From the NCBI GenBank assembly GCA_021792365.1, contig JAJYUT010000004.1:62001-126000 (forward strand): a DNA stretch of 64,000 nucleotides, given 5' to 3'. The DNA is from Pseudomonadota bacterium (lineage in GTDB: Bacteria; Pseudomonadota; Alphaproteobacteria; Dongiales; Dongiaceae). The notes under the pieces were generated by a model. It made no database searches, was not told the origin of the DNA, and saw only the letters and a program-made list of their open reading frames with translations. The position numbers and the translations under genes are program-made. Below, in pieces: positions 32,670 through 42,649 of the stretch (the stretch's first letter is position 1; each line of letters begins with the position of its first letter).

Positions 32670-33614
32670 ATGAGATTGCTGCGCAGATTGACGACGCTGG
32701 CGGCGGCCTGCGTGATTGCGCCGGCTCTGGCGGCGGGACCGAGCTGGGCGGAAACGCGCGTCGTGTTCGTCACGCATGGCCAGGCGGCCGACCAGTACTG
32801 GTCGGTGGTGAAGAAGGGCATGGACGACGCGGCGGAGACGATGGGCGTCAAGGCCGAGTATCTGGCGCCCGAGACCTTCGACATGCCGGCCATGCAGAAG
32901 CTGCTCGATGCGGCGATCGCCTCGAAGCCGGATGGCCTGGTCGTCTCGATTCCCGACGAGAACGCCATCGGCCCGCTGGTCGACAGCGCGGTCAAGTCCG
33001 GCATCCCGGTGGTCGTGATCGATGCCGGCGGCTCCGAGCTTTCGCGCAAGCTGGGCGCGCTGCTCTTCATGGGCCAGTCGGAATACGATGCTGGCGTTGC
33101 GGCCGGCGCGAAGGTCAAGGCGCTCGGCCTCAGCAACGCGGTGTGCGTCAATCACGAGGTGGGCAATATCAGCCTCGACGACCGCTGCCGCGGTTTTGCC
33201 GATGGTCTCGGCGCGGACGTGCCGGTCCTGCAGGGCGTGATGGACCCGACGGAGATGAAGGGGCGCATCGCCGCGCACCTGGCGGCGAATCCCGCTACCC
33301 AGTTCGTGCTGACCGTCGGATCGGCCGGTGCCGATCCCGCGCTCGCCGCGATCGAAGAGGCGGGCCTCACCGGCACGATCAAGACCGGGACCTTCGACCT
33401 GTCGCCGACCATCCTCCAGGCTGTGGCGGACGGCAGGATGGAATGGGGCATCGACGCGCAGCAATACCTGATGGGCTATGTGCCCGTGGTCATGTTCGAC
33501 CTGATGAAGCGCTACAAGCTGGCGCCGATCGCGGATTACCCGACCGGTCCCGGCTTCGTCGGCAAGGCGGAGGCGGGCTCGGTGATCGAGCTTGCGAAGC
33601 AGGGCGTGCGCTAG
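32670..33614 (+). CDS. Sugar ABC transporter periplasmic binding protein (RbsB/FrcB type)
   Basis: 314 aa with a Sec signal peptide (cut near 'GPSWAET') and a Peripla_BP_4 fold: 'VVFVTHGQAADQYWSVVKKG', 'KPDGLVVSIPDE', 'GIPVVVIDAGG', 'IKTGTFDLSPTILQAV'. A very good ribosome site (caggagga) precedes the ATG. It binds a sugar or cyclitol for the permease and ATPase that follow. A LacI-type operator candidate lies 220 bases upstream. With an IolE-like enzyme as the last gene, myo-inositol or a related cyclitol is a reasonable substrate guess, no more. Confidence 0.88.
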   Translation: MRLLRRLTTLAAACVIAPALAAGPSWAETRVVFVTHGQAADQYWSVVKKGMDDAAETMGVKAEYLAPETFDMPAMQKLLDAAIASKPDGLVVSIPDENAIGPLVDSAVKSGIPVVVIDAGGSELSRKLGALLFMGQSEYDAGVAAGAKVKALGLSNAVCVNHEVGNISLDDRCRGFADGLGADVPVLQGVMDPTEMKGRIAAHLAANPATQFVLTVGSAGADPALAAIEEAGLTGTIKTGTFDLSPTILQAVADGRMEWGIDAQQYLMGYVPVVMFDLMKRYKLAPIADYPTGPGFVGKAEAGSVIELAKQGVR

Positions 33615-33793
33615 GGCGCGCCGTGCCGGCCGCATCGTCCGCGCCGAGCCGGTAGCCATACGGCGCAGGATGCGCCGGAATGCACCGCCGGGGCCAGCCC
33701 TCCTCCAAAGGCGGGTCCCGGCGGACTTTTCGGCGTCAGGGCGCGGCATCAATCCTGTGCGCGAGTCTGCGCTTGCCTGGGGGACCACCGCGG

Positions 33794-34930
33794 ATGGCGG
33801 TTAGCGAGGGAAGTCAGCACAAGAGCGAAGAGCGTCCGGGCGAACGGCGGGACGAGCGTGTGCGCGAGATCGGGTTCGCGCGGCAGGTGCTGCGCCGGCC
33901 GGAACTCGGCGCGGCGGCGGGATGCGTGCTGGTCCTGCTGTTCTTCGCGGTGTTCGCCGGTGACAGCGGCCTGTTCAGCGCACGCGGCACGGTCAACTTC
34001 CTGGAGGTGTCGGCGCAGCTCGGCATCCTCGCCGTCGCCGTCTGCCTGCTGATGATCGGCGGCGAGTTCGACCTTTCGCTGGGATCGATGATCGCGTTCG
34101 CCGGCGTCATCATCGCGATCCCCTCGACCGTGCTGGGCTGGCCGATCTGGAGCTGCGTGCTGCTCGCTTTCGCGGCGGCCATCGTCGTCGGCTACATCAA
34201 CGGCTGGCTGGTGGTGAAGACCGGCCTGCCGTCCTTCATCGTCACCTTGGCGACGCTGTTCGTGTTGCGCGGCATCACGCTTGGCCTCACGCGCCTCATC
34301 ACCGGCCGCACGCAGATCCCCGGCATCAGGGAGCTGACCGAGGGCGACTGGCTGGCGCCGTTGTTCTCCGGCCAGTTTGGCGGTGGCGTGCTCGTCTGGC
34401 TCGCGGATCACGGACTGATCGACAAGCGCCCGGACGGCCTGCCGAGTGTGCAGGGCATCCCGGTTTCCATCCTGTGGTGGCTCGGCCTCACCGCGCTCGC
34501 AACCTGGATCCTGCTGCGGACGCGCTTCGGCAACTGGATCTTCACGGTCGGGGGCGACGCCAACGCGGCGCGCAATGTCGGCGTGCCGGTCGCGAGCGTG
34601 AAGATCCGCCTGTTCATCCTGTCGGCATGCGCCGCGACCCTGTTCGCCGCGATCCAGGTGCTGAGCGTCGGGTCAGCGGATACCTCGCGCGGCCTGCAGA
34701 AGGAGTTCGAGGCCATCATCGCCGTGGTGATCGGCGGCACGCTGCTGAGCGGCGGCTACGGCTCGGCCATCGGCGCTATGTTCGGCGCGCTGATCTTCGG
34801 CGTCGTGCAGATGGGCATCTTCTACACCGGCATCGACACCGACTGGTTCAAGGCCTTCATGGGCGCCATGCTGCTTGCGGCAGTGCTGTTCAACGACTAC
34901 ACGCGCCGAAAGGCGTCGGAGACGCGCTGA
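33794..34930 (+). CDS. Sugar ABC transporter permease (RbsC/FrcC type)
   Basis: 378 aa from ATG 33794; the frame is open to 33680. A polar N-terminal tail of about 35 residues is followed by 8-10 membrane helices of the BPD_transp_2 family: '[20 protein letters not shown]', '[20 protein letters not shown]', '[20 protein letters not shown]'. An insertion near '[18 protein letters not shown]' forms the periplasmic loop usual in this family. Its stop overlaps the ATPase start (TGATG), so the two are coupled. The 179 bases between the binding protein gene and this one are longer than usual within such operons. Confidence 0.88.
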
Positions 34931-35727
34931 TGGCCCCGTTGATCGAGCTGCGCGAGGTCAGCAAGTATTTCGGCTCGGTGATCGCGCTCAACGGCGTATC
35001 CTTCGCGGTGCAGGCGGGCGAGGTCCACTGCCTGCTCGGCGACAACGGCGCCGGAAAGTCGACGCTGATCAAGATCCTCTCCGGCGTGCATCCGCCGAGC
35101 ACGGGCGAAATCCGCGTGCAGGACCGGCCGCTCCTGTTCGCCTCCCCGCGCGACGCGCTGGATCGCGGCATCGCCACCGTGTACCAGGACCTGGCGACGG
35201 TGCCCTTGATGAGCGTCGCGCGCAATTTCTTCGCCGGGCGCGAGCCGGAGATCGGCTGGGGCCCCTTGAAGCGCCTCGACTGGCCGCTGATGGAGCGGGT
35301 GGCGCGCGAGGAGATGGGGCGCATGGGCATCGACATCCGCGACCCCGGCCAGCCGGTCGGCACCTTGTCGGGCGGGGAGCGGCAATGCCTCGCCATCGCC
35401 CGCGCCGTCCATTTCGGCGCCAAGGTGCTGATCCTCGATGAGCCGACCTCGGCGCTCGGCGTGCACCAGGCGGCGGTCGTCCTGCGCATCATCGTGCAGG
35501 CGCGGGCGCGCGGCCTCGGCGTCATCTTCATCACCCACAATGTGCATCACGCCTTCCCGGTGGCGGACACCATCACGCTGCTCAATCGCGGCCGCTCGCT
35601 CGGCACCTTCGCCAAGGACGAGATCGCGCGCGAGCGCGTGCTGGAGATGATGGCGGGCGGCAAGGAGCTGGTCGATCTGGAGGCCGAGCTCGCCGCCTTG
35701 CGCCGCAGCGGGGCAAGTCTTCAATAA
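34930..35727 (+). CDS. Sugar ABC transporter ATP-binding protein, single domain (FrcA type)
   Basis: 265 aa with Walker A 'GDNGAGKST', Q-loop '[10 protein letters not shown]', signature '[13 protein letters not shown]', Walker B '[11 protein letters not shown]' and H-loop 'ITHN'. One nucleotide-binding domain only, as in the Sinorhizobium FrcA protein; RbsA has two fused domains, so here it should work as a homodimer. Coupled to the permease by a 1-base overlap. Confidence 0.9.
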
Positions 35728-35744
35728 CCACAGCAGGTTTCTTC

Positions 35745-36647
35745 ATGAGCGTACGTCTGGGCATAAACCCGATCGGCTGGACCAACGATTGCATGCCGTG
35801 GCTGGGCGATTTCATTTCCCTCGACACCTGCCTCGCGGAAGCGAAGCAGGCCGGGTTCTCCGGAGTCGAGCTGGGGCGCAAGTTCCCGCGCTCGGCGAGG
35901 CAGCTCGCTCCGATCCTCAAACGCCACGACCTGAAGCTGGTCTCGGGCTGGTATTCCGCGAACCTGCTGGAGCGCGACGCCAAGGCGGAGATCGCCGCAA
36001 TGAAGGGCCATCTCGACCTGCTGCGCTCACTCGGCGCGGAGGTGATGGTGTTCGCCGAGACGACCGGCGAGATCATCAACCAGGTCGGCGCGCCGATCAG
36101 CCGCCGGCCGAAGTTGGCGAGCGCTGCGGAGTGGAAGCGCCTGGGCGCCCGCTTCACCGAGGTCGCGAGCTATATGCGCGATGAGGGCATGCAGATGGCG
36201 GTGCATCACCATATGGGCACGGTGGTGGAATCGCAGCAGGACGTCGACCGTCTGCTCGAGAACAGCGGCGATGCCGTCGGCCTGCTGCTGGACACCGGGC
36301 ACATGACCTTCGCCGGCGGCGACCCGATCGCGGTGGCGAAGAAATACGCCGCGCACATCAAGCACGTCCATTGCAAGGACATCCGGCGCTATGCCCTCGC
36401 GGCGTGCCGGCAGCGCGACGTCAGCTTTTCCGAGGCGGTGTTGTGCGGCATCTTCACCGCGCCCGGCGACGGTCTGGTGGATTTCAAAAGCGTCTTCGAC
36501 GTGCTCGCGAAAGCCAAGTACAGCGGCTGGCTGGTTCAGGAGGCGGAGCAGGACCCGCGCGTCGCGCACCCCGCCACCTATGCCGCGCTCGGCCGCGCCC
36601 ACCTCGCGCAGCTTTGCGCCGGCGCCAGGATGAGGGTGGCGGCGTAG
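35745..36647 (+). CDS. iolE: IolE-like inosose dehydratase / sugar phosphate isomerase-epimerase family
   Basis: 300 aa, AP-endonuclease-2 type TIM barrel. The N-terminus 'RLGINPIGWTNDCMPWLG', then 'GFSGVELGRKFPR' and 'LVSGWYSANLLERDA', matches myo-inosose-2 dehydratases closely; metal-binding parts 'MAVHHHMGTVVES', 'LLLDTGHMTFAGG' and 'HVHCKDIR' are present. IolE turns 2-keto-myo-inositol into 3D-trihydroxycyclohexane-1,2-dione. It follows the ABC ATPase by 17 bases and ends the operon. No other iol gene is in the window, so it might act on another cyclitol or keto sugar. Confidence 0.8.
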   Translation: MSVRLGINPIGWTNDCMPWLGDFISLDTCLAEAKQAGFSGVELGRKFPRSARQLAPILKRHDLKLVSGWYSANLLERDAKAEIAAMKGHLDLLRSLGAEVMVFAETTGEIINQVGAPISRRPKLASAAEWKRLGARFTEVASYMRDEGMQMAVHHHMGTVVESQQDVDRLLENSGDAVGLLLDTGHMTFAGGDPIAVAKKYAAHIKHVHCKDIRRYALAACRQRDVSFSEAVLCGIFTAPGDGLVDFKSVFDVLAKAKYSGWLVQEAEQDPRVAHPATYAALGRAHLAQLCAGARMRVAA

Positions 36648-36663
36648 AGCCTTTCGAATGCAA

Positions 36664-36697
36664 AACACCACTCCCAATCTGGGGAGTGGTGTTGTTT
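36664..36697. terminator. Bidirectional terminator between convergent genes
   Basis: AACACCACTCCC (36664-36675) and GGGAGTGGTGTT (36682-36693) form a perfect 12-bp stem with a 6-base loop. GTTT follows on the plus strand, and a run of four T's follows the stem on the minus strand. It ends both the sugar operon and the peptide-binding protein gene. Confidence 0.9.
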
Positions 36698-36761
36698 CAT
36701 CACGCGAAGAGGCGACTAGGCTAGTCTAGCGCTTGAAGCGCAAGCGGATCAGCGCTTCGCT

Positions 36762-38288
36762 CTACTCCGACTTGACGGCGGTCTCCAGCATGTAGCGGCC
36801 GAGCGGGTTCTGCACGAAGCCGCTTACGGTTTTGCGCGACGCGTTGCGGAACGGGCTGTAGTACAGGTCAATCCAGTGGACATCGTCCTTCGCCATCCGC
36901 TGGATCTCGAAATACATCGCCTTGCGCTTGCCGGGATCGAGCTCGACCGCGGCCTCCTGCACCAGCCGGGTCACTTCCGGATTCCTGTAGTTGGTGTAGT
37001 ACGAGCGGTTCTCCGGGTCGCCGGAGACGCAGAACTGCGCCTTCTGGTCGGGGTCGAAGATGTCGTTCACCCACCACATCACGCCGATGTCGTAGTCGCC
37101 GGCAATCAGGGCGTCCCATTGCTGGCCCGCCTCCAGCTTCGTCAAGTTGACAGTCACCCCGATCCTGGCGAGCTGGTCCTTCACCAGCACGCCGATCTGG
37201 TCGTGCGCTGAATCGCCGGCCACCAGCACGAAGTTCAGCGTCAGGTCCTTGACGCCCTCCGCCGCCAGCATCGCCTTTGCCTTCTCCGGGTCGTACGGGT
37301 AGTTCGGGTTGTCCGGATTATAGTCCATGCCGTCGAGCGGAAAGAACGAGTTCGCGGGCTTGCCGTAGCCGAAGGTCACCACGTCCACGATCGCCTGCTG
37401 GTCGATCGCCATGTTGAGCGCCTTGCGCACATTCTTATTGCCCAGAGGCTCGTGGGCATGGTTGACCAGGATGTGGTCCATGCGCGTGGACTTGTCGAGC
37501 TGGACCTTGATATCGGGATTGCCCTGCAGCTCCGTGATCTGGTTCCAGGGGATGAAGGTCGCGGCATCCACCTCGCCCGCCTGCAGCTTCAGGGTGCGGG
37601 TGTTGTCGTCCGCGACATAGATCCATTCGACGCCGTCCAGCTTCGGCAGGCCCGCCTCCCAATAGTGAGGGTTGCGCTCCAGAACCACCTTGTCGCCGCG
37701 CGCCCACTCCTTCAGCGTGAAGGCGCCGGAGCCGACGGGCTGCTCGCCGAACCTCTCGCCCAGCTCCTTGACCGCATGCTCCGGCACGATGGAGGCGGCG
37801 AACATGGCCAGCGCCGACATCAGCGGGGTGTAGGGCTTGCTGAGCTTCAGCACGATCGTCCGATCGTCCGGCGTCTCCATGGTCTCGATCACCTGGAACA
37901 GCGAGCGCATGGGAGAGGTCTCCTCGTCCCGCACGCGGGCCAGGCTGAACACCACGTCGCTGGCCTTCACGCTGGTGCCGTCGGAGAACTTGGCCTCGCG
38001 CAGCCTGAAAGTATAGGTCAGCCCGTCCGGCGAGACCTCCCAGCTCTCGGCGAGATCCGGCACGATGTCGGTGGCGTCCTCGTTGGCACGCACCAAGGTC
38101 GAATAGAACTGGTTCAGGACCCACACGTCCGGCGCCAGGATGGTGTAGATCGGGTCGAACGTGGAGCTGTCCTGCTCACGCGCGATCCGCAGCACGTTGT
38201 CGGCCAGGGCATGGCCGGCCCCGGCCAGCAGCAGCATCGCCGCGATCGCCAGGGATGGCAGCTTGGCGGAGAGGATACGGGTCTTCAT
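36762..38288 (-). CDS. ABC transporter substrate-binding protein, peptide/opine type (SBP family 5)
   Basis: 508 aa from ATG 38288, which has a perfect aaggagg site 5 bases upstream; the frame upstream is open but noise. A signal peptide ends at 'GAGHALAD'. SBP_bac_5 features are 'LRIAREQDSSTFDPIYT', 'LVRANEDATDIVPDLAESWE', 'TFRLREAKFSDGTSV', 'VGSGAFTLKEW', 'NVRKALNMAID'. It should bind oligopeptides or similar compounds in the periplasm. No permease or ATPase gene is adjacent. It follows proline iminopeptidase by 29 bases, in the same unit, downstream of a LuxR-type gene and lux-box. Confidence 0.88.
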   Translation of the reverse strand: MKTRILSAKLPSLAIAAMLLLAGAGHALADNVLRIAREQDSSTFDPIYTILAPDVWVLNQFYSTLVRANEDATDIVPDLAESWEVSPDGLTYTFRLREAKFSDGTSVKASDVVFSLARVRDEETSPMRSLFQVIETMETPDDRTIVLKLSKPYTPLMSALAMFAASIVPEHAVKELGERFGEQPVGSGAFTLKEWARGDKVVLERNPHYWEAGLPKLDGVEWIYVADDNTRTLKLQAGEVDAATFIPWNQITELQGNPDIKVQLDKSTRMDHILVNHAHEPLGNKNVRKALNMAIDQQAIVDVVTFGYGKPANSFFPLDGMDYNPDNPNYPYDPEKAKAMLAAEGVKDLTLNFVLVAGDSAHDQIGVLVKDQLARIGVTVNLTKLEAGQQWDALIAGDYDIGVMWWVNDIFDPDQKAQFCVSGDPENRSYYTNYRNPEVTRLVQEAAVELDPGKRKAMYFEIQRMAKDDVHWIDLYYSPFRNASRKTVSGFVQNPLGRYMLETAVKSE

Positions 38289-38317
38289 GGTTGCCTCCTT
38301 GGATCGATGTCGGAGCC

Positions 38318-39229
38318 TCAGCCGCGGTGCGCGTTGAGGAACTTCTCGACCGTCGCCAGATAGTCCGCCGGCTCCTCGAAGAACGGCATATGCGAGGAGT
38401 TCGGGAATACTTTCAGGGTTGCGTTCGACAGGCCCCGCGCGATGCGCGCCGCGCTGTCCGGCGTCAACTCGTCGTGGTGGCCGCACAGCACCAGCACCGG
38501 TTGCTTGATCAGCGGCAGGTCGGCCAGACGGTCCCAGTTCTTGAGATTGCCGATGCAGTTGAATTCGTTCGGCCCCCACATGGTGCCGTAGATGTCCATG
38601 TTGATGCCGTCGGTCGAGCGCTGCAGTGCCGCCGGCCACTTGTCCAGCCGGCAGACGTGGCGGTAGTTGAGGATGGCGACTGCGCCCTGATAGGCGGGAT
38701 GGTCCGTGGTGCCCTCGGCCTCGTGCCGCGCCATCATGGCCACGGTTTCCGGCCCCAGCGCAGCCCGCAGCCGCTCCAGGTCGCGCAGGTGCAGCGGCAC
38801 CTCCGCGGTGCCGTTGGCGCAGACGAAGGTCTTGGCACCTTCCGGATGCGTGAGCAGATACTCGAATCCGAGCCAGCTGCCCCAGGACTGCCCCAGCAGA
38901 TGCACGCGGCCGAGGCCGAGCGCCTGCCGGACCGTCTCGACCTCTCGCACGTAGCGGCCGATGGTCCAGAGCGACTTGTCCTTCGGCTTGTCGGAGCGGC
39001 CGGTGCCAAGCTGGTCGTGGATCACGACACGGTAGCCCCGATCGGCCAGTGCGCTGTGGCTGTCGCGGACATAATCGCAGGGCAGGCCGGGCCCGCCGTT
39101 GAGGCAGAACAGGACTTCCGGTCCGCTGCCGAAGCTGTAGACGGTGACCTGATGGCCGTCAACCGCCACCCGGCGGATCTCGTCCGGCTCGCGCTGGATG
39201 CCCAGTTTCGCCTCTGCCGCCCCTGCCAT
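38318..39229 (-). CDS. pip: Proline iminopeptidase (S33 family alpha/beta hydrolase)
   Basis: About 303 aa from ATG 39229. Family marks: 'CLNGGPGLPCDYV' (oxyanion HGGPG-type loop), 'VVIHDQLGTGRSDKP', nucleophile Ser in 'LLGQSWGSWLGFEYL', Asp in 'LCGHHDELTP' and His in 'NSSHMPFFEEP'. It cuts N-terminal proline from peptides. It lies directly downstream of a LuxR-type regulator, with a lux-box-like palindrome 37 bases before the start. This order is the mark of the XccR/OryR/PipR loci of plant-associated bacteria, where pip is the regulated gene. Confidence 0.85.
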   Translation of the reverse strand: MAGAAEAKLGIQREPDEIRRVAVDGHQVTVYSFGSGPEVLFCLNGGPGLPCDYVRDSHSALADRGYRVVIHDQLGTGRSDKPKDKSLWTIGRYVREVETVRQALGLGRVHLLGQSWGSWLGFEYLLTHPEGAKTFVCANGTAEVPLHLRDLERLRAALGPETVAMMARHEAEGTTDHPAYQGAVAILNYRHVCRLDKWPAALQRSTDGINMDIYGTMWGPNEFNCIGNLKNWDRLADLPLIKQPVLVLCGHHDELTPDSAARIARGLSNATLKVFPNSSHMPFFEEPADYLATVEKFLNAHRG

Positions 39230-39262
39230 GGCTGAAATGTAGGGGACGGGCCAAGCACGGCA

Positions 39263-39284
39263 CAACTAGCAGAACTGCTAGGTG
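39263..39284. promoter_or_regulatory. lux-box-like palindrome in front of pip
   Basis: The core CTAGCAGAACTGCTAG (39266-39281) is a perfect inverted repeat with a 2-base centre. With the outer CA/TG pairs it makes 22 bases with one mismatched pair. Read on the gene's strand the centre is CAGTTCTG, as in las/lux-type boxes. It sits between the luxR stop and the pip start, where LuxR solos of this type bind. Confidence 0.7.
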
Positions 39285-39291
39285 GCGCCGC

Positions 39292-40062
39292 TCAATGCAC
39301 GGAACTGAACAACCGGTAATGGACGGCGTGCGCGATCGCCTGCGCGCGGTTCTGCGCGTCGAGCTTGCGGGTTGCATTGTTCAGATGCAGGCATACGGTG
39401 GCGAGCGAACGACCGAGAATATCGGCGATGTCCTGTGCCGTCTTGCCCTTCGCCGCCCAGCGCAGGCACTCGATCTCGCGCTGGCTGAGTTGCACCGCCC
39501 GGCAGCGCTTGGCCTCGGGATCCAGCCGGGTGAAGATCGCCGCGGCCGTGTGATGCGCCAGCATCGACAATGCTCCGAGGTGATGACGTGCATCCTCCAC
39601 GAAGCTCGGCGCGGGATCCACGCAGATCGCCGTGACGGTGGCCAAGCCGCCGCCGCTGACGTGGATGGGCACTGTGGCTCCGCAGGTGAGGCGGGCGTCC
39701 CGCAGATAGCTCACCACCGGCTGATGCTCGGCGGTCAGCGGGCGGTCTCCGATCGCTCGGGCATTGCCGAGATGCGACCAGACGAAGGGGATCGCGCTGT
39801 CCAGGCACGCTTGCTGCACCGGGTCGATGCGGCAATAGCCCTCGTCGCGCCAGAGCGAGACGAAGCTTTCGGGCGCGTTGCGGGTCAGGAGGACATTCGG
39901 TACGAGCATGGTGCCGAGATGGGAGCGCGACACCGGGGCAAAATCATAGATGACGCAGCCGAAGCCGAGCGTTTCGACACAGTCCGCCATGAGATCGAGG
40001 CAGGCAGCCACATCCGGAGCCTTGCCAAGGCTGTTCGCGAGCCGGTCGACAACATCCGTCAT
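39292..40062 (-). CDS. LuxR-family regulator, solo of the plant-signal (OryR/XccR/PipR-like) type
   Basis: 256 aa with an autoinducer-binding domain (about 15-165) and a GerE HTH (about 190-250, 'LSQREIECLRWAAKGKTAQD'). Aligned on TraR without gaps around 'GYCRIDPV', Asp70, Pro71 and Trp85 are kept (Asp80, Pro81, Trp95 here), but Trp57 is Phe67 and Tyr61 is Trp71. Loss of Trp57 and a Trp at position 61 are features of the subfamily that answers plant compounds instead of acyl-homoserine lactones (there usually Met and Trp). No luxI is in the window. Next genes are pip and a peptide-binding protein. Confidence 0.85.
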   Translation of the reverse strand: MTDVVDRLANSLGKAPDVAACLDLMADCVETLGFGCVIYDFAPVSRSHLGTMLVPNVLLTRNAPESFVSLWRDEGYCRIDPVQQACLDSAIPFVWSHLGNARAIGDRPLTAEHQPVVSYLRDARLTCGATVPIHVSGGGLATVTAICVDPAPSFVEDARHHLGALSMLAHHTAAAIFTRLDPEAKRCRAVQLSQREIECLRWAAKGKTAQDIADILGRSLATVCLHLNNATRKLDAQNRAQAIAHAVHYRLFSSVH

Positions 40063-40255
40063 CGAGACCTACCAGTGTTTTGTCGCGAAGGGAGCTTCAA
40101 GGATACGAAGGACGCGAAAGCCGGTCAATTCGAAGCGCTGTCGTCGGTTGGGGTCATACGCGCGATAGGCCTTCATTCTTGCAGCCGGATGCGGGCGCGA
40201 TCAATCGCGCTTCCCAACTGCGACCTCGAAGAGCTTCCATCCTGGTGACGCCGCC

Positions 40256-41281
40256 CTAGGTCTGCGGCAGGTTCTCGCGCAGGTAGATGGTGACCGGGGT
40301 CTCGAGCGGGACCTCAGCGTCCGGGACGCGGCGGTTGTAGTGCAGGAGAAGTTGCACGGCGCGCAGGGCCTCGACCTGCGGGTTCTGGTCCAGCACCGCG
40401 TCCATCAGCCCGTCGGTCAGCAGCTCGCGATGCACGTCGGTCATCTCGTGGCTGATGAGCACGACCTCGCCGCCCTTGCCGAGGGCCTTCAGCGCCGCGG
40501 CGATGCCGCGGCTGCCGACCGAGATGTTGTAGATGCCGCGCAGACTGGGGAAGCGCTTGAGAGCGTCGCGAGTCAGCTTCTCCGTGCGCTCCTGCTGCTC
40601 CTGGCTCTCGACCATCGCCACCACCTCGCAGGACGGGAAGCGCCGGCGCAGCACGCCGCGGAAGCCGCTCTCGCGCTCCTCATGGCCGATGAAGTCGTGC
40701 ATGCCGCTGACCACCAGGATCTCCCCGCCCTGCGGCCCGAGGAAGCGGCCCATCAATTCGCCGGCGACGCGCCCCGCCACGCGATTGTCGCTGCCCACAT
40801 AGGCGATGCGCCCGCTGGCCGGCAGGTCGCTGGCGACGGTCACGATCGGGATGCGCTTGCTGGTGGCCTTGAGGGCCGCGGTGATGCGCGGATGGTCGTA
40901 GCTGAGGATCACCAGCCCGTCCGCCTTCTCCGTGGCGCGGTGAATCGCGCGTGCGACGGCCGCCGGCTCCAGGCTGTCGAAATAATGCAGCAGGCACATG
41001 ACGCGCTGCGCCTCATAGGTGCGCTGCGCGTTCTGGAACGCGGTCCGCAGCGCGCCATGATAGGGATTGCTGGGGTTCTGGATCAGGATCGCGATACGCA
41101 GCCAGCGCATCGGCAGGTCGTCAAGGGCGCGGTCGATCTTCAGCTTGCGCGCCCATTCGAGCACCCGGCGCGCGCGCTCCTGCCGCACGCCGCCGCGCCC
41201 GTTGAGCACGCGGTCGACGGTCGCGACGGAGACCTGAGCCGCCGCCGCCACGTCCTGGATGGTGGTCTTGCGCTGCCCCAT
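40256..41281 (-). CDS. LacI-family transcriptional regulator
   Basis: 341 aa. The N-terminal LacI HTH ('TTIQDVAAAAQVSVATVDRV' then 'LNGRGGVRQ') is followed by a sugar-binding Peripla_BP_4 domain ('RIAILIQNPSNPYHGAL', 'KADGLVILSYDHP', 'RIAYVGSDNRVAGRVAGELM'). It most likely controls the ribose/inositol-type operon: a near-identical operator-like palindrome lies in front of its own gene (41326-41343) and of the transporter operon (32434-32451). The ligand-binding domain resembles that of the periplasmic binding protein it would control, as is usual. Confidence 0.88.
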   Translation of the reverse strand: MGQRKTTIQDVAAAAQVSVATVDRVLNGRGGVRQERARRVLEWARKLKIDRALDDLPMRWLRIAILIQNPSNPYHGALRTAFQNAQRTYEAQRVMCLLHYFDSLEPAAVARAIHRATEKADGLVILSYDHPRITAALKATSKRIPIVTVASDLPASGRIAYVGSDNRVAGRVAGELMGRFLGPQGGEILVVSGMHDFIGHEERESGFRGVLRRRFPSCEVVAMVESQEQQERTEKLTRDALKRFPSLRGIYNISVGSRGIAAALKALGKGGEVVLISHEMTDVHRELLTDGLMDAVLDQNPQVEALRAVQLLLHYNRRVPDAEVPLETPVTIYLRENLPQT

Positions 41282-41325
41282 GGGACCAGTCTAGCGTGAG
41301 GGGTTTCCTGCTCGAATTCTAGCAG

Positions 41326-41343
41326 ATGAAGGGATTCCATCAA
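41326..41343. promoter_or_regulatory. LacI-type operator candidate in front of the LacI-family gene
   Basis: On the minus strand it reads TTGATGGAATCCCTTCAT, 45 bases before the LacI gene start; it agrees with 32434-32451 at 15 of 18 positions. It could also affect the KTSC-domain gene that starts 50 bases to the right. A separate palindrome, GGAACGGTTCC, lies at 41359-41369. Confidence 0.5.
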
Positions 41344-41392
41344 TATCATCGGGCGTCAGGAACGGTTCCGTCCGCCGCCTTGTTCAACCGCC

Positions 41393-41605
41393 ATGCCGAG
41401 GGAGGCCGTGGTGTCCAGCGCGATCGCTGCGGTGGAGTATGACGACGCCGGCCAATGGCTCGGCATCGAGTTGACCAACGGCCACGCCTACCGCTATCGC
41501 GACGTGCCGCGGAGCACCTACGAGGCCTTCATGGCGGCGGACTCGAAGGGACGTTTCTACAACGACCATATCCGCGACATCTTTCTCTATGAGCGCCTGC
41601 GTTGA
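41393..41605 (+). CDS. KTSC domain protein
   Basis: 70 aa, the whole length taken up by a KTSC domain: 'VSSAIAAVEYDDAGQWLGIE', 'NGHAYRYRDVP', 'YEAFMAADSKGRFYNDHIRD'. The family is named after the KTSC motif at the C-terminus of some lysyl-tRNA synthetases, and small stand-alone forms like this are common. The 'SKGRFYN' part is the conserved core. Function unknown; RNA binding has been suggested for the domain. It is divergent from the LacI gene and 75 bases before the kinase gene. Confidence 0.85.
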   Translation: MPREAVVSSAIAAVEYDDAGQWLGIELTNGHAYRYRDVPRSTYEAFMAADSKGRFYNDHIRDIFLYERLR

Positions 41606-41680
41606 GGAGCGGTGCGGCTGGGGGAGGGCTTCGCACGATGCGCCCCTATGCTATTCATGGGCCGTTCGGGAGAGACAGGA

Positions 41681-42649
41681 ATGCCCCAATCGACACACGA
41701 AACGCGCGCGGCGCCGGTCAGGGTCGCTTGCATCGGCGAATGCATGCTGGAACTCTCCGCCGCGGAAGGGAAGCCGGACCTGCGCCGGCTAGGCTTCGGC
41801 GGTGATACGCTGAACACGGCGGTCTACCTGGCGCGCATCGGCATCCCGGTCGATTATGTCAGCGCCATGGGCGATGATCCCTACAGCCAGCGCATGATAG
41901 ATGCCTGGGGGAGCGAAGGCATCGGCACCGGCCTCGTGCAGCGCGCTGCGGGGCGCCTGCCCGGGCTCTACATAATCGAGCTCGACGAGCAGGGGGAGCG
42001 GCGCTTCTTCTATTGGCGGCAGCAGGCGCCGGCGCGCGAGATCTTCAGCAACGAGCGCACGGACGAACTGTGCACGAAGCTGCTGAACTATGACTGGCTC
42101 TATCTCAGCGGTATCAGCCTGTCGCTCTATGGCGAAGCGGGGCGCGAGCGGCTGTTCGATCTGCTGCGCCAGTTCCGCGCCAAGGGCGGAAGGGTCGCCT
42201 TCGACAGCAACTACCGCGCGCGCGGCTGGCCCTCTGTCGAGGTGGCGCGGCGCGAGATCCGCGACCAGATGGGGCTGACGGACCTCGTACTCTCCAGCAT
42301 CGAGGACGAGACCGGCCTCAACAACGTCCGGAACGCGGAGGAGGCCTGCGACTTCATCCACGGCCTTGGGCCGCGCCTCGTCGTCATCAAGCAGGGCGGC
42401 GAAGGCTGCATGGTCTCGGTGGACGGGCGCAAGACCCATGTCCCGCCGGTGAAAGCCGCGCAGGTGGTCGACGCCACCGCCGCCGGCGATTCCTTCAATG
42501 CGGGCTTCCTCGCGGCGCGTCTGCGCGGCGCCGACACCGCCGAGGCGGCCAGGCTCGGCCATCGCTGCGCCGCCATCGTGATCGGCCACCATGGCGCGAT
42601 CGTGCCGCGCGACGCCTTCCGGAGCGGGCTCGGCGAGCCGGCTATTTGA
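41681..42649 (+). CDS. kdgK: PfkB-family sugar kinase, 2-keto-3-deoxygluconate kinase type
   Basis: 322 aa from ATG 41681 (gggaga about 8 bases upstream; the open frame begins earlier). KdgK-like N-terminus 'VACIGECMLELS', then 'GFGGDTLNTAVYLARIG', 'RRFFYWRQQAPAR', 'FDSNYRARGWPS', and the PfkB signature 'VDATAAGDSFNAGFLAAR' with the catalytic Asp. It phosphorylates 2-keto-3-deoxygluconate to KDPG, which enters the Entner-Doudoroff route. That fits the enolase-superfamily dehydratase at 28-29 kb, which would supply keto-deoxy acids. Confidence 0.85.
   Translation: MPQSTHETRAAPVRVACIGECMLELSAAEGKPDLRRLGFGGDTLNTAVYLARIGIPVDYVSAMGDDPYSQRMIDAWGSEGIGTGLVQRAAGRLPGLYIIELDEQGERRFFYWRQQAPAREIFSNERTDELCTKLLNYDWLYLSGISLSLYGEAGRERLFDLLRQFRAKGGRVAFDSNYRARGWPSVEVARREIRDQMGLTDLVLSSIEDETGLNNVRNAEEACDFIHGLGPRLVVIKQGGEGCMVSVDGRKTHVPPVKAAQVVDATAAGDSFNAGFLAARLRGADTAEAARLGHRCAAIVIGHHGAIVPRDAFRSGLGEPAI

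Follow-up and report, generated by a model that had tools for sequence, protein, structure and literature searches.

A compact cassette of a pip-linked LuxR solo, an aminopeptidase and an AapF-like solute-binding protein in a Dongiaceae genome, and its candidate unlinked importer

Introduction

The LuxR solos OryR, XccR, NesR and PsrR have in common a tryptophan at the position equivalent to TraR 61, no luxI, an adjacent gene of the pip (proline iminopeptidase) family and a 20-bp inverted repeat, and the same features were found in the cassette described here, which lies in a 64,000-nucleotide stretch (hereafter the window) of a Dongiaceae genome (contig JAJYUT010000004.1, assembly GCA_021792365.1; genome G000, 5.43 Mb in 30 contigs) and consists of a luxR gene, a lux/Pip box, an aminopeptidase gene and a gene for a solute-binding protein (SBP). 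The subfamily has been described as limited to plant-associated bacteria (PMC3824090) or to isolates of plant and terrestrial origin (PMC10134790), and the latter review lists its members, their Met/Trp residues and a homologous transporter protein not binding N-(2-hydroxyethyl)-2-(2-hydroxyethylamino)acetamide (HEHEAA). In the PipR-Aap system of Pseudomonas sp. GM79 the regulator site is centred at -71.5 from pipA, the aapB mutant loses the pipA response, the peptidase mutants raise it, and PipR answers also to peptone and Ser-His-Ser; the peptidase AapA (PMI36_04622), whose activities are given in the same paper, prefers alanine (PMC4981722). With PsrR of Kosakonia, rice root macerate, ethanolamine and HEHEAA all failed to elicit a pip response under the conditions that were used (PMC7301841). 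Rhodospirillum is among the genera with homologues (PMC3824090), so the occurrence of such regulators in this bacterial group is not new, and a literature search, mostly outside subscription papers, returned nothing on the Phe57 lineage or the unlinked importer reported below.

The evidence leans towards a small sensor cassette of the PipR/OryR kind, pip-linked and of the type called plant-associated, which probably feeds an importer encoded elsewhere in the genome. Judged from sequence, it is a real variant of the pip-linked systems and probably a working one, and its response to plants is a reasonable guess.

The LuxR solo

On the minus strand luxR is followed by the aminopeptidase gene and then by a family-5 SBP gene, with intergenic gaps of 62 and 29 nt. 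The luxR product (39292-40062, minus strand, 256 aa) matches the Pfam families Autoind_bind (PF03472, 8.8e-26) and GerE (PF00196, 7.3e-16), being the sole Autoind_bind match (E <=0.001) across G000. The absence of luxI, proposed in the initial annotation, held for the whole genome: a LuxI search of G000 found none and was positive in 7 of the 12 chosen genomes, including the same-family G005 and G014 (an earlier search had been empty for G000 and also for all of its 14 control genomes). By alignment, TraR positions 57 and 61, read as Phe and Trp in the initial annotation, correspond to Phe67 and Trp71, with Asp80, Pro81, Trp95 and Gly128 retained. Among 95 aligned locus rows these two positions are M/W in 49, W/W in 41 and F/W in 5, so that Trp61 occurs in 95/95 rows and additionally in 2/10 outgroup rows (L153 and L007), the luxI-linked L153 reading W/W. 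The residue at position 57 is accordingly Phe, not the Met typical of pip-linked solos, and PipR itself has Trp there. The F/W rows represent four distinct genes, all of the window's own family, and the variant at position 57 noted in the initial annotation marks a family-level lineage. Positions 49 and 58, which PMC7301841 discusses, among others, in connection with PsrR and PipR, are Leu and Val in the window LuxR; a charged residue or His stands at one or the other in 81 of the 95 rows, which hints at a different, less polar ligand. With the mapping used here, these pocket positions come out as E, V, M, R in the Kosakonia protein and as K, T, W, H in that of GM79, matching that paper.

In a careful tree of 26 rows, 22 pip-type LuxRs were separated from 4 outgroup rows at 100/100, and the same split was recovered at 97 in a quick tree, which combined the 10 outgroup rows with 46 of the 95 aligned locus rows. 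The outgroups were luxI-linked and other distant LuxRs of same-class genomes, on long branches; OryR and XccR were not among the tree rows, and none of these was checked as NesR itself. The window LuxR lies basally with L053, L054 and L055, which form a clade with it in the quick tree and a grade in the careful one.

The lux/Pip box

The box ACCTAGCAGTTCTGCTAGTT (20 bp, 39264-39283, minus strand) lies in the 62-nt gap between luxR and the aminopeptidase gene, its centre 44.5 nt before the peptidase ATG, and by reading is palindromic in 8 of 10 base pairs; an exact 8+8 palindrome was looked for and dropped, the centre pair being mismatched and the arms 7 long. The 180 nt that follow luxR in each of 81 loci (44 unique sites) served to train a 20-bp matrix, with the window, L053, L054, L055 and L070 held out and 9 pip-less rows left out. 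The window box scored 22.9 bits and the next best place in the 64 kb 9.9, which bears out the lux-box placed by the initial annotation between luxR and pip. The first matrix seed was a consensus written with the window site already seen, hence not blind; re-seeding solely from the published GM79 PipR site again gave 22.9 for the window and 9.9 for the runner-up. None of 1000 mononucleotide shuffles of the window's 180-nt stretch reached 22.9 (maximum 10.7), and 14 bits were reached by 1 of 860 shuffled stretches. That level was attained by 78 of the 81 training loci (L065 scored 12.2, and L056/L101, one gene, 8.0), and the pip-less rows, representing eight distinct genes, gave at most 7.2 bits downstream and 1.5 upstream. 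The held-out relatives scored 19.9 (L053 and L054, the box of the latter being outside the 180-nt stretch and found using 360 nt) and 5.6 bits (L055/L070); the box of the G014 luxR operon, at 5.6 bits, is weak. A second box upstream of luxR (>=14 bits) is present in 69/86 rows but not in the window, L053, L054 or L055.

L059 and L060 have no pip match yet carry a box of 20.5 bits (19.7 when they are removed from training, the window then scoring 22.9), so a box can exist without pip. These two loci, in G006 and G010, hold further pip-type LuxR paralogues and adjoin a different family-5 SBP and importer. Another nine loci (L058, L126, L127, L129, L132, L137, L140, L141 and L143), mostly of Pseudomonas and several named P. 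oryzihabitans, have LuxRs of the same group without a pip gene, importer match or box. Genome-wide, CTANCAGNNCTGNTAG has its single exact occurrence in G000 at the box; a loose search (<=2 mismatches) gave 108 matches per strand vs 732 for a reversed control, so that only the exact match was used, and a second zero-mismatch match to another pattern, on contig C10, was rejected as asymmetric and situated at the start of a folK-like open reading frame (ORF).

The aminopeptidase and the solute-binding protein

The aminopeptidase gene (38318-39229, minus strand) can be read as an ORF of 315 aa from TTG at 39265, the likely start being ATG at 39229, whose spacing from the conserved core by reading equals that of the L054 ATG. 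The product matches Abhydrolase_1 and the proline-iminopeptidase-family model TIGR01250 (5.5e-78). The name pip used in the initial annotation is right as to the family, but the enzyme belongs to the AapA side and not to the PipA side: it is 61% identical to GM79 AapA vs 37% to GM79 PipA, and in the peptidase tree it falls on the side of PMI36_04622, which was equated with AapA via its gene order matched to L135; there it and the L053-L055 enzymes make up a separate branch. Downstream of the window luxR no PipA-side peptidase is present. A third peptidase paralogue of the genome, on contig C21, is 37% identical to the window aminopeptidase.

The SBP (36762-38288, minus strand) matches SBP_bac_5 (2.3e-106), in agreement with the peptide-type SBP named earlier, and among solved structures its best-matching relative, at E 9.1e-153, is AapF from Pseudomonas sp. 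PDC86 (7kz8/7kz9), 7KZ9 being described as HEHEAA-bound in the AlphaFold 3 paper. Its N-terminus resembles a Sec signal peptide by reading. In the tree it forms a clade with the SBPs of L053-L055, separate at 100 and beside the AapF-type SBPs.

The unlinked importer

There is no peptide-type permease or ATPase gene within the cassette, and the nearest genes of the ATP-binding cassette (ABC) type, at 33680-35727, are part of the neighbouring sugar locus. The initial annotation was thus correct on this point for the cassette itself but missed a matching importer set on another contig, C9 (L052), where a peptidase, two permeases, two ATPases and an SBP are encoded beside a divergent IclR-family gene. 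The first C9 permease, to which the permease tallies and identities in this work refer (the second was named by reading translations), shares 62% identity with the permease in the luxR operon of G010, whereas the best other permease of the genome reaches 39%. The C9 SBP is 66% identical to GM79 AapF and falls within the AapF clade, the C9 peptidase is 74% identical to GM79 AapA, and in the comparison with AapF the C9 SBP scored 714 bits and the window SBP 512.

C9-type SBPs at 68-90% were found in the same-genus genomes G001-G003 and in G008, G009, G012, G013, G015 and G016, and none at E 1e-100 in G004, G005, G007 and G011. The nine SBP-holding genomes gave at most DNA-binding-domain matches to the window LuxR (G001 is 68% complete); the family thus retains the C9-type importer in genomes with no such LuxR. 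Where the C9-type operons were read (G002, G003, G008, G012 and G013), an IclR-like neighbour was found in G002 only. In the IclR/peptidase intergenic region of the present genome (L052:1900-2010) an inverted repeat CGTATC-N7-GATACG was seen by reading, a possible IclR operator.

Related loci and the site of the cassette

The scan matched 298 relatives, of which 80 loci were kept, and the neighbourhood counts cover these. A pip gene is present in 72/80 and a permease match in 70/80; pip without a permease match occurs only in L092 and L120, both cut by contig ends, and no locus among the 80 has an AapF-like or window-type SBP with pip and without a permease match. The luxR operons of G006, G010 and G014 (L053-L055, L195-L197) share with the cassette the order luxR-peptidase-SBP, Phe57 and high identities (72-79% for the SBP, 75-82% for the peptidase). 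They differ in that the window-type SBP stands there with a permease and ATPases of the C9-importer family in the same operon, and in that the G006 and G010 operons each contain two peptidases and two SBPs, the second SBP after the ATPases (L195:10785-12314 in G010; L196:7173-8702 in G006). Two SBPs thus seem to share one importer in G006 and G010. The assignment of the second SBP to the AapF type was rejected, as it forms a third branch of the AapF-like proteins: its identity is 56-57% with the window-type SBPs and 54% with that of C9, and it groups with the window-type clade against the AapF types at 100/100 in an unrooted tree.

Compared with PipR-Aap of GM79 (L135), the cassette has a LuxR solo of 42% identity, a 20-bp box before the peptidase gene, the AapA-side peptidase and an AapF-like SBP of 47% identity. 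It differs in lacking a PipA-side peptidase beside luxR and a second box upstream of luxR, in its unlinked importer genes, in Phe instead of Trp at position 57, in having all genes on one strand, and in the distance from the box centre to the start codon (44.5 nt vs 71.5 nt). From OryR, XccR, NesR and PsrR it differs by Phe instead of Met at position 57 and by its basal place in the trees. As a separate observation, L057, L064, L072, L081 and L094 are pip-type LuxR loci with a permease of a second, distant importer clade, which means that pip-type LuxRs as a group are coupled to two or more different importers.

The cassette occupies about 36648-40255, between a sugar isomerase gene and a LacI-family gene, as delimited by comparison with G001, G002 and G003. 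These flanking genes adjoin in G003 and G002, where their aligned parts stand ~8 and ~150 bp apart, respectively; the two genes are separated by 1.3 kb in G001, and no luxR, pip or SBP match was found there. The cassette is present in this species and absent from the same site in the three same-genus genomes, and the comparison is compatible both with a gain here and with a loss in the relatives.

Proposed function and alternative explanations

In the favoured reading the LuxR would bind an imported small non-AHL molecule (AHL, N-acyl homoserine lactone), and the regulator would bind the 20-bp box at 39264-39283 and activate the downstream genes of the AapA-type aminopeptidase and the AapF-like SBP. 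The SBP may catch the inducer or a related compound and pass it to the unlinked C9 permease/ATPase set, which would also serve the AapF-type SBP of its own locus, and the aminopeptidase might trim or destroy the inducer, by analogy with the GM79 peptidase mutants. Several results weigh against such a scheme. The C9 operon has no box (the best score upstream of its peptidase is -7.1) and an IclR-family gene adjoins the C9-type operon here and in G002, so the LuxR would not co-regulate the importer through the box motif. At 37 positions the 4 window-type SBPs differ consistently from 61 other SBPs of such loci, and no genome was seen in which one operon holds both a window-type and an AapF-type SBP; the second SBP of G006 and G010 being of the third branch, the precedent covers an additional SBP served by such an importer, not this exact pair. 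Finally, the constraint of the window LuxR alone to the outgroup was not rejected in the approximately unbiased (AU) test (p-AU 0.126), for which reason only a divergent or sister lineage of the pip-linked LuxRs, without a firm place inside, is put forward as the best reading. The kinship with OryR/PipR/NesR-type regulators advanced in the initial annotation is upheld by the tree splits, and is qualified by this test, the basal placement and the absence of OryR and XccR from the rows. The plant response suggested there is made less secure by the nine same-family genomes that retain an AapF-type SBP but have no strong match to the window LuxR, and by the unresponsive PsrR of Kosakonia (PMC7301841).

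The weak AU test, together with the AHL-pocket residues Asp70, Pro71, Trp85 and Gly113 that are kept and the Trp61 of the luxI-linked L153, which makes this residue alone not decisive, might speak for an AHL eavesdropper with a peptidase neighbour by chance; this appears very improbable given that Trp57 and Tyr61 are both changed, that the LuxR stands apart from the luxI-linked ones in both trees, and that a pip-type box and an AapF-like SBP are present. A more serious competitor, held with somewhat less than even confidence and overlapping with the plant-type cassette except in the source of the signal, is a nutrient sensor by which peptides or ethanolamine-type compounds of any origin tune scavenging. 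The answer of PipR to peptone and Ser-His-Ser (PMC4981722) is consistent with it, as are the AapF-type SBP kept in the nine same-family genomes without a strong window-LuxR match and some plasmids with related LuxRs that come from human samples, one of these plasmids with pip and importer genes; the description of the known subfamily as plant-associated (PMC3824090) or plant/terrestrial (PMC10134790) points the other way. Rather unlikely is a decaying remnant of a full luxR-peptidase-SBP-importer operon that lost its importer, in which the LuxR may still act and the SBP would be idle or merely sequester the ligand: such a history would suit a cassette without peptide-type permease and ATPase, an arrangement with AapF-like or window-type SBP and pip that none of the 80 scan loci repeats, but none of the three genes is interrupted or truncated, the box stays close to the consensus, and the genome encodes a close importer elsewhere.

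A tentative extension of the plant-type cassette, which we regard as doubtful, is that regulator, box, aminopeptidase and SBP form a transplantable module re-tuning a resident, differently regulated importer, so that the new SBP would supply the genus-core Aap importer with a new ligand, which the module's own LuxR would read. If this were true, the sensing specificity would be swapped by the exchange of SBP and LuxR, with the permease unchanged. The different pocket residue, the divergent SBP and the separable importer together offer a clean test of what sets the specificity, whether SBP, permease or LuxR.

Neighbouring genes and sequence features

A promoter scan gave a single weak site ahead of luxR (chance expectation 0.5), a terminator scan gave none, and a repeat search found no sign of mobile ends at the borders of the cassette. 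The guanine-cytosine content of the cassette (64.6%) is below that of the flanks (67.8 and 68.4%) yet near the window mean (65.7%), and was dropped as evidence. The left flank is a xylose-isomerase-like TIM-barrel gene (35745-36647, plus strand) adjoining a sugar ABC operon, and the right flank a LacI-family regulator gene (40256-41281, minus strand); both belong to a sugar-use locus that surrounds the cassette (32670-36647 and 40256-42649), with a sugar-type SBP, ABC genes, the isomerase, the LacI-type regulator and a PfkB kinase.

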